Of a stretch of 64,000 bases of DNA, positions 395-6,040 are shown in pieces. How positions within the stretch are numbered: the first letter of the stretch is position 1; the number at the start of each line of letters is the position of its first letter. The translations under genes and the position numbers were made by a program. The notes beneath the pieces are model-generated. The model saw only the letters and a program-made list of their open reading frames with translations. It had not been told where the DNA came from and ran no database searches. The DNA is from Gemmatimonadota bacterium. Lineage in GTDB: Bacteria; JAAXHH01. The DNA is taken from assembly GCA_026702745.1 (NCBI GenBank), contig JAPPBT010000004.1:1-64000 (forward strand), read 5' to 3'.

Positions 395-512
395 TTCCGG
401 TGGCGATAGCGGAGGGGAAACACCTCTTCCCATTCCGAACAGAGTAGTTAAGCCCTCTTGCGCCGATGGTACTGCTTGGGTGACCTTGTGGGAGAGTAGG
501 ACGCTGCCGGGG
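395..512 (+). rRNA. rrf: 5S ribosomal RNA
   Basis: The 5' strand TCCGGTGGCG pairs with the 3' strand CGCTGCCGGG to form helix I. The interior holds the conserved CCATTCCGAACAGAGTAGTTAAGC block and GATGGTACTGC of a bacterial 5S rRNA. Length is about 118 nt. It lies about 50 nt after the 23S end, the normal rRNA operon order. Its 3' two-thirds (from 437) together with the terminator are duplicated exactly at 5920-6040. Confidence 0.96.
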
Positions 513-557
513 GATGCTGAGAAGGCGCTCGATTCATTTCGGGCGCCTTTTCTATTT
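437..557 (+). repeat. 121-bp direct repeat, copy 1 (5S 3' part plus terminator)
   Basis: By direct reading, bases 437-557 are identical to 5920-6040. This copy lies inside the intact 5S gene and its terminator. The other copy is a truncated 5S joined to unrelated DNA. The two copies bracket the segment that holds the GWxTD gene and the restriction-modification transposon. Confidence 0.97.
522..552 (+). terminator. rRNA operon intrinsic terminator
   Basis: AAGGCGC (522-528) pairs with GCGCCTT (543-549) around an AT-rich loop and is followed by a T-rich run. It sits immediately after 5S rRNA, as expected for a Rho-independent terminator. An identical copy lies at 6005-6035. Confidence 0.9.
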
Positions 558-614: not shown

Positions 615-3071
615 CTATGGCTCCACCACCATGAAGTTGACCGACTTGGAGACGGAACTGTTTGTATGGCGGTCGGTTAGCGTCACGGTGAGCACGTACT
701 CCCCGGCCTCGAGATTCGCGGTATCCAGGGCGGTGTATTCCCCCTCTTCAGCTGAAGTCCCATGCCTGTCGAAGACTGTCATAACCGTCTGCATGTCGCC
801 GGGTGGCCGGGCGGACCGGTTCCGCAGCGCAGGCATGCCCATGGGCGTGATCTCGTAGAGGTTCTCGTACGACGTCCGGCCGGATTCGTCCATGACCAGG
901 TTGTATACCTCGTAGTACACGTAAACCAGGTGTCCCCGAGCGTAGAGGCGACCAGGATTCGGGACGACGTTCAATCCCTTGCGCACAAAGGGGCCAGGAC
1001 CTGGCGCTGGCGTGATTTCCGTTGAGAGCTTGAGATCGCTGATGAGCAGGTCGCTGCCGCGGTAGTCAGACAAGGAAACCGGCTTCTTGTATACACCTAT
1101 GCGTTGCGTGACGTCGTCTCGCATTTCCACGGCGGCCATGAATGTGCCTGGAGGCGCTGACATATTCGCAGCCAGCGTGAAGGCGGCGCCCTGGAACTCC
1201 TGGTTAGCCGCCTGCCGTTCGGGCCGGGCTATGGGACCGAACCGGAACTTGCGCGAATAGGCGGGTGTCTGTACCGAATCGCGCAGGGTAACCTGGTTGT
1301 CGAGCCAGGTACGATCGCCCTTTTCGTCGCCGATGTCTCCAAACTGCCAGACCGGTATACTGTAGGCCAGATCCACTTCGGTCGATCCCTCTTCGCCTCG
1401 GAATGAGACCGCGTCAAAGGCGTATTCGAGGGGCTCCCCGCCGAAGTCATGTGCATAGACCTCGGGGCTTCGGGCGATCAGTGCGGCGGCCTGACGACGG
1501 GGATGCACCGCATCTTGGCGACCGATTTCGTTGGGCTGAATGGTCTGATCGCCGCTCTCGTCGACTGCAAGAGTTTCCAGGGGATAATCGTACCGGCCTC
1601 CCCCCATCTGGTCGACGAAGAACAATTCCAGTTTGTAAGGCACATACACCCAGCTTTCCGCCATGTACGAAGACCCCATTTTTCTTCTCTGCTTAGCGGC
1701 CTGTTCATACATGAGCTGTGCCATAGACTTGCCTTTGACATTTATATCATCATCCATCGTGGGCGCCCCAAAACCGCTTCGCATCTTCTTGTCTGTATCA
1801 AATATCTTCGACACCTCGCCGCGGTTTACCTGCAATTGGTATCCGAACTGAAGGTTCTTCTCCCGTATTGCGTCCACGGCCGGGTTGTCGGACGTAAGAA
1901 ACGACTCATACTGATTCTCGTTCGCCCTGACCATGAAGCGACGCCGGTCGTCGGGCTCACCGTATCGAACGTGGATTTCACCACGCCGATCATAGGGAAA
2001 CTTCTTCTCCGAGAAGTGGATGCGGGCATACATGATGCGGCGATAGTGCTCCACCAAGCGCTCGTTTTCGATCGTGGCCGGATTCGAATCCCGTTCGTTC
2101 CAGAAGGCCAGCCAGAGCGCGTCCCGTTCCGGTTCGGTCGCCGCTTCCCAGGTCGCGAGTTCATCTGGCGGAGCGACATGGCTCAGATCCCTGTATACCG
2201 CCTGTTCGTCGGCGTCCAACTGCGAGATGTAGGACTCCAGCGCCTCCTGAAGACGATCGAATTGCTGATCCGATCCGAGCGCCAGCACTTCGTACTGGGA
2301 GAGCATGGTCCGGATACGGTCCGGCGTATCGTCTCCCCAAGCGTCGACGGTTGCCTTGAGTTCAACAACCCCCAGGTCGTAGCGTTCGGTGCGGTGACTC
2401 ACATTGGCGAAACTTAGCAGCGCCTCGCTGTGTTCAGGATAGACACGGTATTGCTGCATATAGGCGCTGAGCGCCTTTTCGGTCTCAGGTTCGTCGGGAC
2501 TGTCATAACACCGGCCGAGCTGGAAGTACGCATCCGGGTGCGTGGGGTTGAGCTCAACGGCCTTCAGGAAGTGTTTCCTGCCGTCCCTGGCGCTGCCGAT
2601 CAACCGGCCCGAGCGCTCCTGGTCCATGTAGGTCATGCCCATGCGGTATTGCGCGTCCACATTCCCCGGATCGATCTCCAGGGCCCTTCGATAGGCGATT
2701 CGGGCATCGAGCCGCCTTTTAGGCAGTCGTGCGTACACCATACCCATGCCGATGTGGCCCGACAGCCAGTTCCTGTCCAGTTGCACGGTCCTTCTGAATG
2801 CCTTCAACGCTTCGTCATTGTCGCCCACGGCGAACCACGCCATGCCCAGCCAGTAACGCGCCTCGGCCGACGTCTTCTCCTCGCTTACTGCTTGTTGGAA
2901 CGTGGTCAGCGCTTCGTCGTATCGGCCCTGCTGATAGAGGATCTTTCCCGCGTCAACTTTACCCTGGTCGTATGGTTCGCTCGCAGAAACCTCTCTGAGA
3001 GACAGGGTCTGGGAAAGCATATACAACGGATGGATGATCAGCGCGATCAGCAGGAAGTGTCGGGTATTCAT
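615..3071 (-). CDS. TPR and GWxTD domain-containing secreted protein
   Basis: The product is about 818 aa. An N-terminal hydrophobic signal-like segment (about residues 1-18) is followed by several tetratricopeptide repeats (about 25-250) with typical W-x2-A-x-Y spacing. Next comes a GWxTD-family domain (about 310-420) marked by FWNERDSNPAT, NERLVEHYRR and the RRGEIHVRYGEPDDRR region; the signature itself is degenerate (FPYDRRG). The C-terminal third is beta-rich. I chose the ATG at 3071, 12 codons inside the longest frame, because AGGTAGG lies just upstream and the signal sequence then starts cleanly. The function of this family is not established; export and a cell-surface scaffold role are inference. 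The gene converges on the rRNA operon, and its leader is interrupted 14 bp before the start codon by the transposon at 3093-5680, so it may now depend on a promoter in the transposon end. Confidence 0.85.
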   Translation of the reverse strand: MNTRHFLLIALIIHPLYMLSQTLSLREVSASEPYDQGKVDAGKILYQQGRYDEALTTFQQAVSEEKTSAEARYWLGMAWFAVGDNDEALKAFRRTVQLDRNWLSGHIGMGMVYARLPKRRLDARIAYRRALEIDPGNVDAQYRMGMTYMDQERSGRLIGSARDGRKHFLKAVELNPTHPDAYFQLGRCYDSPDEPETEKALSAYMQQYRVYPEHSEALLSFANVSHRTERYDLGVVELKATVDAWGDDTPDRIRTMLSQYEVLALGSDQQFDRLQEALESYISQLDADEQAVYRDLSHVAPPDELATWEAATEPERDALWLAFWNERDSNPATIENERLVEHYRRIMYARIHFSEKKFPYDRRGEIHVRYGEPDDRRRFMVRANENQYESFLTSDNPAVDAIREKNLQFGYQLQVNRGEVSKIFDTDKKMRSGFGAPTMDDDINVKGKSMAQLMYEQAAKQRRKMGSSYMAESWVYVPYKLELFFVDQMGGGRYDYPLETLAVDESGDQTIQPNEIGRQDAVHPRRQAAALIARSPEVYAHDFGGEPLEYAFDAVSFRGEEGSTEVDLAYSIPVWQFGDIGDEKGDRTWLDNQVTLRDSVQTPAYSRKFRFGPIARPERQAANQEFQGAAFTLAANMSAPPGTFMAAVEMRDDVTQRIGVYKKPVSLSDYRGSDLLISDLKLSTEITPAPGPGPFVRKGLNVVPNPGRLYARGHLVYVYYEVYNLVMDESGRTSYENLYEITPMGMPALRNRSARPPGDMQTVMTVFDRHGTSAEEGEYTALDTANLEAGEYVLTVTLTDRHTNSSVSKSVNFMVVEP

Positions 3072-3084
3072 TCCAATACCTACC

Positions 3085-3092
3085 TTTTGTAA
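3085..3092. repeat. 8-bp target-site duplication, left copy
   Basis: TTTTGTAA at 3085-3092 abuts the left terminal repeat and is repeated exactly at 5681-5688 outside the right terminal repeat. Eight base pairs is the duplication length known for IS1595-family transposition. Confidence 0.92.
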
Positions 3093-3115
3093 GGGAATTA
3101 TAACCAATTTTAACC
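3093..3115 (+). repeat. Left terminal inverted repeat of the IS1595-type element
   Basis: This 23-bp sequence, GGGAATTATAACC then AATTTTAACC, matches 5658-5680 perfectly in inverse orientation. The endonuclease stop codon (3110-3112) lies inside it. On the minus strand it contains TATAAT (3097-3102) pointing out toward the GWxTD gene. Confidence 0.95.
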
Positions 3116-3123
3116 GTTGTCAA
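3097..3123 (-). promoter_or_regulatory. Possible outward promoter in the transposon left end
   Basis: On the minus strand TTGACA (3118-3123) is followed after 15 nt by TATAAT (3097-3102). The hexamers are perfect sigma-70 matches but the spacer is two bases short, so activity is uncertain. It points at the GWxTD gene, whose start codon is 26 bp beyond the -10 box. The -35 box lies in the endonuclease coding sequence. Confidence 0.45.
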
Positions 3124-3733
3124 TTGCGGAGAGCAGCGTTTGAAGACCGCCCTCGAAGATAATTTGTCTGGCTACGGCCGTGCTCGCCTTGTGGCTGAAC
3201 CCCGTCATCTCGGTGGGTGGTTTCTTGGTGATCTCCATCGGGATGACGTTGGCGGGATCCTCGGCCAGCATAGCGACGGCCTGGCGTCTCAGGATCACGG
3301 CGTCGCTTACGTCCTTGATCCATTCGCCGGACACCATATCGGGCGCACCGAATACGATCCCGACTTCAGACAGCACGAAAAGGGTGGCCGCGTCCCATTC
3401 ACGGTCTCCGCCTCCCTGCTTGTTGAGCAGCCGAATGTCCGTCAGTCCGCCCGTAAACGTGCTTTTGACGGACAGTTTGCGGTCGTTGGGAAGCAGGATG
3501 TCCCCGGACCGTGCTTGGTCCCCGTACAGCGTGCAGTCGATTCCCACGGAGCGCAACAGGGCGTAGGTGAATACTTCGACCGCTCCGCCCACGATAAAGC
3601 GGTTCTCGAAGATCGTCGTGTTGTACCGCTCAAGCAGCGTCGATATGGCCAGTTCGTACTCCTGCTGGGCCTGGACGCTGCAATCGCTCTTGAGACGCTG
3701 GAAGGCCCGTTGTTCCTGCCGGAATTGGGTCAT
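3110..3733 (-). CDS. Putative type II restriction endonuclease
   Basis: The product is 207 aa. I infer an endonuclease from its overlap with a DNA methyltransferase and from PD-(D/E)XK-like residues: Glu53 in a helix, Gly-Asp78 on a predicted strand, and Ser88-Val-Lys90 on the next. The SVK form of the last motif occurs in Cfr10I/NgoMIV-type enzymes, though spacing here differs. The C-terminal half has no motif I recognise, and the recognition sequence cannot be read from the gene. The start overlaps the methyltransferase stop (ATGA at 3730-3733), so translation is probably coupled. The stop codon lies within the transposon's left repeat. No controller (C) protein gene is present. Another nuclease-like partner role cannot be excluded. 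Confidence 0.7.
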   Translation of the reverse strand: MTQFRQEQRAFQRLKSDCSVQAQQEYELAISTLLERYNTTIFENRFIVGGAVEVFTYALLRSVGIDCTLYGDQARSGDILLPNDRKLSVKSTFTGGLTDIRLLNKQGGGDREWDAATLFVLSEVGIVFGAPDMVSGEWIKDVSDAVILRRQAVAMLAEDPANVIPMEITKKPPTEMTGFSHKASTAVARQIIFEGGLQTLLSAIDNG

Positions 3734-4656
3734 CCTGCCGCGATCCGGTCGAAACGCGGCAGCAGGTTATGCGAGCGTTGCGGGGGGGGGTGGTGGATAC
3801 GCGCTTGAGACAATTCGAGGTACTTTTCTTCAACGTCGTATCCTACGCAACGGCGTCCTTCGCGGAGCGCAACCAGGGCGGTCTGTCCGCTTCCCAGGAA
3901 CGGGTCGAGTATTTCGTCGCCCTCTTCCGAATAGAGCACCACAAGGCGGCGTACCAGTTCTTCGGGGTACGGGCAAGGGTGGTCAATGGTCTTGGGCGGT
4001 ACGGGGGCAATGTGCCAGATATTATTGGCAATGTCCCGCTTGAAGAGCTCGTCGATGTCGAGGGCCTGCTTCATCCCGCGCCGGACGGGGCCGGCCTTGC
4101 GAAACAGCAGGATGTACTCGGTCATGATGTTCGGGTAGTAGTATCCGGCCTGGGGGTGCTGGATGAAACTGCCAGCCCGTTTGACGCCTCCGGTTACCTT
4201 GTTCCAAATGATGTCCTGATGAAACTCCCAGCCCATCTTGAGTATTCGTTCCGTGATGAGCATGGGAATAGGGTGGTGCTTGCCCTCGTGGAGTATCGTG
4301 CCCACCACGATGGCACAGAACCCGCCGTCCATCGTAACCCGCAGGACGTTCTTAAAGACCTTGCCGATGTTGCCCAGGTACTCTTTGAACGTCTCGCCGA
4401 ACGCCTGATATCCGCGCTCCCTGTGCCATGCTTCCTTGCCCTGTCCGGCATGGATGTCGTAGTCGATGGCGTTCCAGTACGGTGGAGATGTGACGGTCAA
4501 GGCAATCGACTGATCGGCGCAATGCTGCATTTTGAGGGACGATTGAGGGTAGAATCGGTACCCCTCTCCATCATAAATCCCCTTGCGCCTGTGTCTGGCC
4601 CTTATGGTCTTACGGGCTGCCCTGTCGAACGAATCAGGAAGCGGTGAGTTTGGCAT
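3730..4656 (-). CDS. DNA methyltransferase (N4-cytosine/N6-adenine, beta-type)
   Basis: The product is 308 aa. The catalytic motif TSPPYW is at 56-61 and the AdoMet-binding motif DPFLGSGQTALVA at about 251-263, so the catalytic motif precedes the cofactor motif, the order of the beta class. SPPY favours N4-cytosine methylation, but N6-adenine cannot be ruled out. The target-recognition region would lie between the motifs. I chose the ATG at 4656; longer versions read into the transposase in another frame and lack methyltransferase features. AAGGG lies about 10 nt upstream. The start lies inside the transposase 3' end and the stop overlaps the endonuclease start, giving a transposase-M-R operon in which the methylase is made before the nuclease. 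Its likely role is to protect host DNA from the neighbouring enzyme. Confidence 0.9.
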   Translation of the reverse strand: MPNSPLPDSFDRAARKTIRARHRRKGIYDGEGYRFYPQSSLKMQHCADQSIALTVTSPPYWNAIDYDIHAGQGKEAWHRERGYQAFGETFKEYLGNIGKVFKNVLRVTMDGGFCAIVVGTILHEGKHHPIPMLITERILKMGWEFHQDIIWNKVTGGVKRAGSFIQHPQAGYYYPNIMTEYILLFRKAGPVRRGMKQALDIDELFKRDIANNIWHIAPVPPKTIDHPCPYPEELVRRLVVLYSEEGDEILDPFLGSGQTALVALREGRRCVGYDVEEKYLELSQARIHHPPPQRSHNLLPRFDRIAAG

Positions 4657-5575
4657 AACCGAGTTTCCCTTCTGCGTTCTTGATGGCGGCGGCGATATGC
4701 TCCATCGTGGTGAAGTCCCGCCGAGACTGGCGGGTTGCAAACTCGTCAACGTAACGCCGCAGGTGCTTAACGCTGAAATGATGAAACGTCCCGATGTACG
4801 CCCGCTTGAGCAAGGCCCAGAACGATTCCACGCCGTTGACGTGCACCATGTCGTTGACGTACTCCCCGACGCTGTGGTCAACGGTGCGGTGCTTGTAGTC
4901 TCGCAGCCCCGTGTAACCCTTGTGGCCGTCGGTGTAGATGGTCGAATCCGGTTCGACCCTGGCTTCGATGATGGTATGCAGCGTCAACTTGTCTACTTCG
5001 TCCACCGGCATGGCCTTGATCCGTCCGGTTGCCCGTTCCTTCAATCCGACTACGGGCTGCTTGCCAGCCGGGCCGCGTCCGTTGCGCTGCTTCTTGTTGG
5101 CGTGCTTGTTCTTTTCGAGACCGCCGAAGTATGCTTCGTCGATTTCCACTTCACCGATGAAGGGCATTTGATCGGCGTCGTTCTGATTCCAGGTTTCGCG
5201 GATACGCTGCTCCAGGTACCAGGCGCTCTTTTGAGCGATTCCCAGTTCGCGAGCCATCTGGCAACTGGATATCGACTTCTTGGCTACGGCCATGAGGTAG
5301 ATGGCGTACAGGCACTTCTGCAGGGACAGGTTGGCCGAATGAAACACCGTACCGGTTTTGACACTGAAAAACTTCCGGCAGTCCTTGCAACGGAACGGCT
5401 GCGGCTTCTCGTTCTTCGGGCGGGAGATTCGGACGCTATCGCAATGCGGGCAACGCGGCGTGCCGTCCCATCGCTGTGTCTCCATGTACGCCCTGGCTGC
5501 GTCTTCGTTGGGGAAGCGTTCGAAGAATCCCCAGGTGCTCATCGTGCCGTCTGTCGGGAGGGTCTTGCTTGCCAT
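4634..5575 (-). CDS. IS1595-family (ISXO2-like) transposase
   Basis: The product is 313 aa. An N-terminal zinc ribbon uses Cys42, Cys45, Cys63 and Cys66. A helix-turn-helix-like stretch covers about 85-125. The ISXO2-like catalytic domain has Asp146 in GEVEIDEAYFGG, Asp216 in IYTDGHKGY, and Asn247/Glu250 in HVNGVESFW, matching the DDN/E pattern of the family. The ATG at 5575 is preceded by AAAGGA at good spacing. The gene lies about 80 bp inside the right terminal repeat, the usual position for a transposase reading inward. Its 3' end overlaps the methyltransferase start. No frameshift or missing catalytic residue is seen, so it is probably active. Confidence 0.95.
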   Translation of the reverse strand: MASKTLPTDGTMSTWGFFERFPNEDAARAYMETQRWDGTPRCPHCDSVRISRPKNEKPQPFRCKDCRKFFSVKTGTVFHSANLSLQKCLYAIYLMAVAKKSISSCQMARELGIAQKSAWYLEQRIRETWNQNDADQMPFIGEVEIDEAYFGGLEKNKHANKKQRNGRGPAGKQPVVGLKERATGRIKAMPVDEVDKLTLHTIIEARVEPDSTIYTDGHKGYTGLRDYKHRTVDHSVGEYVNDMVHVNGVESFWALLKRAYIGTFHHFSVKHLRRYVDEFATRQSRRDFTTMEHIAAAIKNAEGKLGYAKLTAS

Positions 5576-5657
5576 TTCGGGTATCCTTTCGTGTTGTTTG
5601 TTATACCTACAACTTACCCGATTTCGTGGCAAAAGTCAACAAAAATAATGCGATTTT

Positions 5658-5680
5658 GGTTAAAATTGGTTATAATTCCC
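5658..5680 (-). repeat. Right terminal inverted repeat of the IS1595-type element
   Basis: This is the perfect inverse copy of 3093-3115. It contains TATAAT at 5671-5676 facing outward on the plus strand, without a convincing -35 partner. Confidence 0.95.
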
Positions 5681-5688
5681 TTTTGTAA
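5681..5688. repeat. 8-bp target-site duplication, right copy
   Basis: TTTTGTAA here repeats 3085-3092. The next bases, GGTA, mirror the TACC that precedes the left copy, so the empty site would have been a 16-bp dyad. Confidence 0.92.
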
Positions 5689-5836: not shown

Positions 5837-5920
5837 CTAGTTGTTCACCTCGATCAAGTTAAGGCTGAATGTCATGCGGATAAGGTCGGGAAGGCTATGC
5901 GTGTTTCGTTTCGCCATCAG
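5837..5920 (-). pseudogene. Truncated NarL/LuxR response regulator, C-terminal remnant
   Basis: On the minus strand this reads 27 residues and a stop, beginning LMAKRNTHSLPDLIR. It matches the end of the intact regulator at 18409-19044 (MAKLNTHSLPELIRTAIKLG). Everything upstream, including the receiver domain and the recognition helix, is missing: the sequence passes directly into the duplicated 5S fragment at 5920. This is a broken gene end, not a functional product. It shows that a second response-regulator locus once existed near the rRNA operon. Confidence 0.85.
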
Positions 5921-6040
5921 AACAGAGTAGTTAAGCCCTCTTGCGCCGATGGTACTGCTTGGGTGACCTTGTGGGAGAGTAGGACGCTGCCGGGGGATGC
6001 TGAGAAGGCGCTCGATTCATTTCGGGCGCCTTTTCTATTT
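5920..6040 (+). repeat. 121-bp direct repeat, copy 2 (truncated 5S plus terminator)
   Basis: These bases are identical to 437-557. The first 76 or so are the 3' part of 5S rRNA, which lacks its 5' strand and cannot fold normally, followed by the terminator hairpin. The left edge abuts a response-regulator remnant and the right edge an ABC ATPase remnant, so it is a relocated fragment and not a second 5S gene. Confidence 0.96.
6005..6035 (+). terminator. Duplicated rRNA-type intrinsic terminator
   Basis: This is a perfect copy of the hairpin at 522-552, with stem AAGGCGC/GCGCCTT and a T-run. It remains structurally intact here and could stop plus-strand transcription entering from the transposon side. 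Confidence 0.75.

Follow-up and report, generated by a model that had tools for sequence, protein, structure and literature searches.

We identified a complete 2588-bp insertion element of the IS1595 family (positions 3093-5680) in a 64,000-nucleotide stretch of a Gemmatimonadota bacterium contig (JAPPBT010000004.1; hereafter, the window). We consider it likely that this element is a transposon moving a Type II restriction-modification (R-M) pair and that IS1595 elements serve as a chassis that has been loaded with R-M systems repeatedly. This reading draws on the ends and duplications of the element, an empty site in related genomes, a second independent copy, the domain content of the genes and the recurrent association of IS1595 elements with R-M genes, all as read from sequence.

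Structure and insertion site of the element

The initial annotation described perfect 23-bp terminal inverted repeats, an exact 8-bp target duplication and three genes between the ends, and all of these were recovered (Table 1), with no more than three plausible genes between the ends, each of them in the minus orientation. When the first 8 kb of the window was subjected to mononucleotide shuffling, a loose arrangement (a 14/23 repeat with an 8-bp duplication) arose 0.16 times per shuffle, compared to the 23/23 match of the real ends, and chance repeats were thereby ruled out as the source of the element ends. Elsewhere in the 3.88-Mb genome, the 23-bp end sequence was not found, and the element is therefore single-copy. 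Where a composite transposon would have two IS copies bracketing the cargo, this element has one transposase, and its ends are single 23-bp repeats.

Table 1. Coordinates of the element, its ends, genes and target duplication in the window.
Feature	Position	Strand	Details
Target-site duplication, copy 1	3085..3092	.	8 bp TTTTGTAA; exact copy at 5681-5688
Terminal inverted repeat, cargo end	3093..3115	+	GGGAATTATAACCAATTTTAACC; 23/23 inverted match to 5658-5680
R, 207-aa putative restriction endonuclease	3110..3733	-	motif D78-x9-S88-V-K90
M, beta-class N6/N4 DNA methyltransferase	3730..4656	-	PF01555 2.3e-36; PADLOC MTase_II 2.6e-62; PDB 2zie 4.6e-30
IS1595-family DDE transposase, N-terminal zinc ribbon	4634..5575	-	PF12762 3.5e-41; PF12760 1.6e-10
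Terminal inverted repeat, transposase end	5658..5680	-	reverse complement of GGGAATTATAACCAATTTTAACC, 23/23
Target-site duplication, copy 2	5681..5688	.	8 bp TTTTGTAA

Members of the IS1595 family generate 8-bp target duplications. The assignment of the element to this family, as originally proposed, is strong, given this duplication together with the zinc ribbon and the match of the transposase, encoded by an intact ORF, to PF12762 and to NF033547 (190.3 bits, cut-off 75). The transposase and M genes overlap by 23 bases, and M and the gene immediately after it, R, by four (ATGA). These co-directional, overlapping genes would fit expression as an operon and underlie the suggestion of a single-ended promoter in the initial annotation; this suggestion was not borne out by a scan of the region upstream of the transposase, in which no consensus sigma-70 promoter was found.

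As a comparison with empty sites in relatives had been called for, a query made of both element flanks was searched in siblings of the same genus. The orthologous site is empty in at least three of these (G006, G008 and G010), in which the start of a TPR-protein gene runs directly into the right flank and the target site is single and unduplicated. The site in G006 reads ...TTTCGTACCTCCTTCAGAATGGGTACGAG..., versus ...AATACCTACC TTTTGTAA (element) TTTTGTAA GGTACGAG... in the window; the sibling flanks are ~72% alike to those of the window, conservation does not extend to the exact target bases, and neither the element nor a duplication is present. The occurrence of M and R at the same spot in relatives lacking the terminal repeats, which the initial annotation had named as grounds for abandoning its proposal, was not observed, the sibling site containing neither gene. 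The target duplication and the empty site appear to be traces of past transposition.

The element is inserted upstream of the TPR-protein gene (615-3071), ~14 bp from its ATG, with a ribosome-binding-site-like stretch left with this gene and all element genes reading towards it. The element may displace or replace the promoter of the TPR-protein gene. On the other side of the element, the region 5872-5995 is a weak second copy similar to 5S rRNA (38.6 bits), part of which is 99% identical to window positions 434-557, at and after the real 5S gene (396-512); pieces similar to this region recur in the sibling genomes.

The M-R pair and its putative nuclease

M has the PF01555 domain and the catalytic motifs SPPYW (motif IV) and DPFLGSG (motif I) looked for in the methyltransferase of a Type II R-M system. 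Its best solved relative is PDB 2zie, and the SPPY motif suggests m4C as the product. Searches with R against Pfam, NCBIfam, PADLOC, PDB sequences and PDB folds returned no match. The predicted model of R (pLDDT 61.5) is too weak to show a nuclease fold, and a second model, with one homolog added, was worse than the first. The residues of the D-x9-S-x-K motif (D78, S88 and K90) are invariant, and the weak model places a helix followed by strands around this motif; on these features, R is probably a PD-(D/E)xK-type enzyme, and we treat it as a putative endonuclease. R is rare: a pattern scan of an 85,000-species genome collection yielded five loci, and the gene was detected in 2 of the 246 genomes of one order and 1 of the 301 genomes of one phylum, with none found in plasmid, phage and viral-contig collections. 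Comparison of the copies in loci L004 and L005 points to purifying selection (dN 0.037, dS 0.99, dN/dS ~0.04).

The search for the same M and R genes between IS1595 ends at other loci, as the initial annotation had advised, revealed a second full element with the transposase-M-R order in a member of Rhodobacteraceae (L005), with ends GGGAATTATATACAATGTTGCC and GGGAACTATATACAATGTTGCC at 3082/5648 and an exact target duplication, TTAATTTT, that differs from the one in the window. The gene order and the ATGA overlaps are as in the window, and the identity between the two elements is 49% for the transposase, 73% for M and 61% for R. The end sequences are akin among members of the family (GGGAATTATAACC in the window, and GGGAATTATATAC in both L005 and L115). 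Both the L005 copy, which has different flanks and comes from another bacterial group, and the empty sibling site support the proposed movement of the cassette as one unit.

R adjoins M in the window, L003, L005, L006 and L064, the two genes being inherited as a pair, as in a Type II R-M system. In L006, the pair is preceded by a scrap of transposase, and in L003 and L064, no transposase was detected, the L003 contig beginning only ~240 bases before M. The M-R pair is thus a unit in its own right that joined the IS and is sometimes its cargo, because in other bacteria (L003 and L064) it stands alone. Directly after the stand-alone pair in L003, there are two more genes with DPPW motifs (L003:1709-2741), MT-A70-like by eye. 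The exception to the pairing is L004, where R and one end are kept in a 5'-truncated element from which M and the transposase are lost. This copy of R is intact (L004:5001-5621), and no close M was found in that genome. Given that an active, expressed R without M would be lethal, either R lacks strong nuclease activity or its L004 copy is silent.

The most serious alternative, which we nevertheless regard as unlikely, takes the element to be a real IS1595 transposon, the cargo of which is an epigenetic or regulatory pair, made up of a methyltransferase with an accessory DNA-binding protein, rather than a restriction system. M might then tune transposition by methylating the ends or the promoter, in the same way as Dam methylation tunes the transposition of IS10 and IS50. 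The orphan intact R in L004 and the failure to place R in a known family or fold are compatible with such a role. However, sister elements have a recognisable nuclease at the position of R: REase_II in L052, L056 and L058, PDDEXK_11 in L060, and HNH or Mrr domains in L026, L028, L029, L096 and L115. This and the invariant motif carried by R itself argue against the alternative.

Restriction-modification cargo in the IS1595 family

In sibling genomes, IS1595 transposases were followed up because they too adjoined methyltransferases. Methylase-Mrr-like fusions lie inside ends with exact 8-bp duplications in L028 (CAATAATG) and L096 (TATACTTT). Methylase-HNH fusions are carried by L025 (AAATCTTA; in the window's own genome, frameshifted), L026 (AATGATAT; 6.6 kb), L029 (CGATAAAT) and L115 (CTTTTTTA), HNH in L115, as in L118, being a motif visible in the translation rather than a Pfam match. 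In L050 (TTTTTTAT) and L056 (AAAAAAAG), M is accompanied by a separate nuclease-like gene, in L105 (AAAAATTT), by a small gene, and in L126 (TAAAAGAA), an m5C methylase (PF00145, 6.6e-75) is paired with a 242-aa nuclease-like partner. The partners in L052, L056 and L058 match PADLOC REase_II (L058 at 7.6e-52), and that in L060 matches PDDEXK_11. Loci without clear end pairs (L052, L058, L060, L118 and L121-L123) were not counted as delimited, nor did loci with doubtful ends (L030, L107, L114, L120 and L127) enter the count. A 3.9-kb "element" delineated by the script in L060 proved spurious, with an IS1595-type end at L060:4324. In one genome (G498), several IS1595 copies (L121, L122 and L123) overlap or adjoin beta-class methyltransferase genes; no element ends were found for these three. 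Seven annotated plasmid records with IS1595 transposases contained no annotated R-M cargo.

Ends and duplication delimit 30 IS1595 elements. A DNA methyltransferase is present in 12 of these (11 detected with a home-made profile and one, m5C, with Pfam), compared to none, by profile, in the ~176 kb of flanks of the same loci. The duplications are exact over 8 bp in 29 of the 30 delimited relatives and 7/8 in the remaining one, the search itself having required a near-exact copy, and their A+T content is 82% versus 51% in the flanks. When loci were sampled across the domain via the transposase family alone, 3 of the 17 delimited elements carried R-M. The R-M label requires about 9 changes on a 48-transposase tree (8-10 in bootstraps, with at least 6 changes forced by supported branches) and is clustered, none of 500 shuffles giving a number as low. 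The sister transposases of L026 and L027 (100/100) differ in that one is associated with R-M and the other is not. Furthermore, the window element and L005 share M-R, and the L005 transposase is sister to that of L050 (96/81), the R-M system of which is different. This topology fits an exchange of cargo between transposases.

The initial annotation had also held that related elements ending just after the transposase would count against the cassette. Such relatives do exist among distant members of the family (L103, 981 bp; L128, 736 bp; L131, 898 bp; L132, 736 bp), and M-R is therefore optional cargo, but they do not show that the pair lies outside the transposon.

A further alternative, improbable in our estimate, accepts the description of the element but takes the broader link between IS1595 and R-M to be a sampling effect devoid of functional meaning, produced by host-associated metagenome bins rich in both. 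The best examples do come from few genomes, reached via the genus of the window or via R, and the fraction in the broad sample is low. Yet the methyltransferases are inside the ends, with none in the flanks of the same loci (Fisher's test on block counts, which is crude: p = 0.013 for the broad sample and 6e-8 for all elements), and several structurally different R-M types are involved. Finally, we rejected, as highly implausible, a resident R-M system flanked by IS1595 ends by chance, which the M-R pairs lacking a transposase in L003 and L064 might bring to mind, on the strength of the empty sibling site, the duplication bracketing all three genes and the same gene order between ends in L005.

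Proposed mechanism and relation to known mobile R-M systems

Under the preferred reading, that of a transposon moving a Type II R-M pair, one overlapping gene run consisting of the transposase, the methyltransferase and the putative nuclease lies between ends that the transposase recognises, and the transposase would insert this unit in its entirety at AT-rich sites, duplicating 8 bp of the target. The R-M pair would travel with the element because everything between the ends is inserted. Host DNA would be marked and protected by M, and DNA without the mark is the expected substrate of R. A host with the element would therefore restrict incoming DNA, and would pay for losing the element once M is diluted. 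More generally, IS1595 elements would be a chassis on which compact R-M modules are repeatedly captured, exchanged and lost. Defence and post-segregational killing by Type II R-M systems have been discussed previously (PMC3031569, PMC10273834), and both effects can be predicted for the window element from this knowledge. The pair may also stabilise the IS, as the initial annotation suggested. Several observations weigh against this explanation: R lacks a detectable relative of known function and its model is weak, intact R occurs without M in L004, the promoter scan was negative, and the element is single-copy, so that copy number gives no sign of recent activity.

The usual vehicles of R-M systems are a plasmid, a prophage, a long island or a pair of IS copies. 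IS1595 members with passenger genes, known as transporter IS (tIS), have been described (PMC3129680 and PMC7986276, citing Siguier, Gagnevin and Chandler 2009). The window element resembles tIS in its transposase family, 8-bp duplication and passenger genes between the ends, and differs from tIS, as we found them described, in carrying a full R-M pair. R-M genes between two IS copies, that is, in composite transposons, and IS-linked movement of R-M are likewise on record (PMC3031569), as is an R-M system on a mobile unit, the PluTI element (Khan 2010, as cited in PMC3031569). In common with these, the window element is a mobile unit carrying an R-M system, but here the R-M genes are inside the ends of a single IS and overlap with its own transposase, so that a second IS copy is unneeded. 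The pair also resembles a stand-alone Type II R-M system (M then R, with a 4-bp overlap), the form in which it occurs in L003 and L064; in the window and L005, by contrast, it sits on a transposon chassis. Type IIG-like methylase-nuclease fusions have the same layout as the M::HNH and M::Mrr fusions of sibling IS1595 elements, in contrast to the separate M and R in the window. Both IS1595 elements with passengers and R-M genes located on transposons or flanked by IS copies are thus already known, and the literature searched, to which Siguier 2009 and ISfinder did not belong, contained no description of complete R-M systems inside IS1595 elements. Priority for R-M-carrying IS1595 elements is uncertain, as Siguier 2009 may mention methyltransferase passengers.

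A broader reading, which we put forward tentatively and would not presume, is that IS1595 elements are widespread minimal "restriction transposons" that swap defence or addiction modules across phyla, each with one transposase and one compact R-M system, other members having small nuclease or toxin-like modules, and that R-M is under selection for the penalty it imposes on transposon loss. A single small IS that is loaded time and again with R-M systems, both complete and varied, would be close to the smallest self-contained vehicle for them, and the question of selfish, host-addicting R-M systems would be directly testable in a 2.6-kb element. A gene of unidentified family beside a methyltransferase inside IS1595 ends could also offer a cheap route to new restriction enzymes, and the recurrent pick-up of R-M by IS1595 suggests a simple route for the spread of bacterial immune and addiction systems.

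Additionally, IS1595 transposases in other genomes adjoin further small defence- or toxin-like genes, namely, DUF3800, MazF/PemK-like, NYN and PIN genes (L100:3057-3881, L107:5517-5879, L108:2984-3574, L114:2576-3118 and L160:5206-5781). L160 is not delimited, and L107 and L114 have doubtful ends; the genes in L100 and L108 are inside ends with exact duplications.
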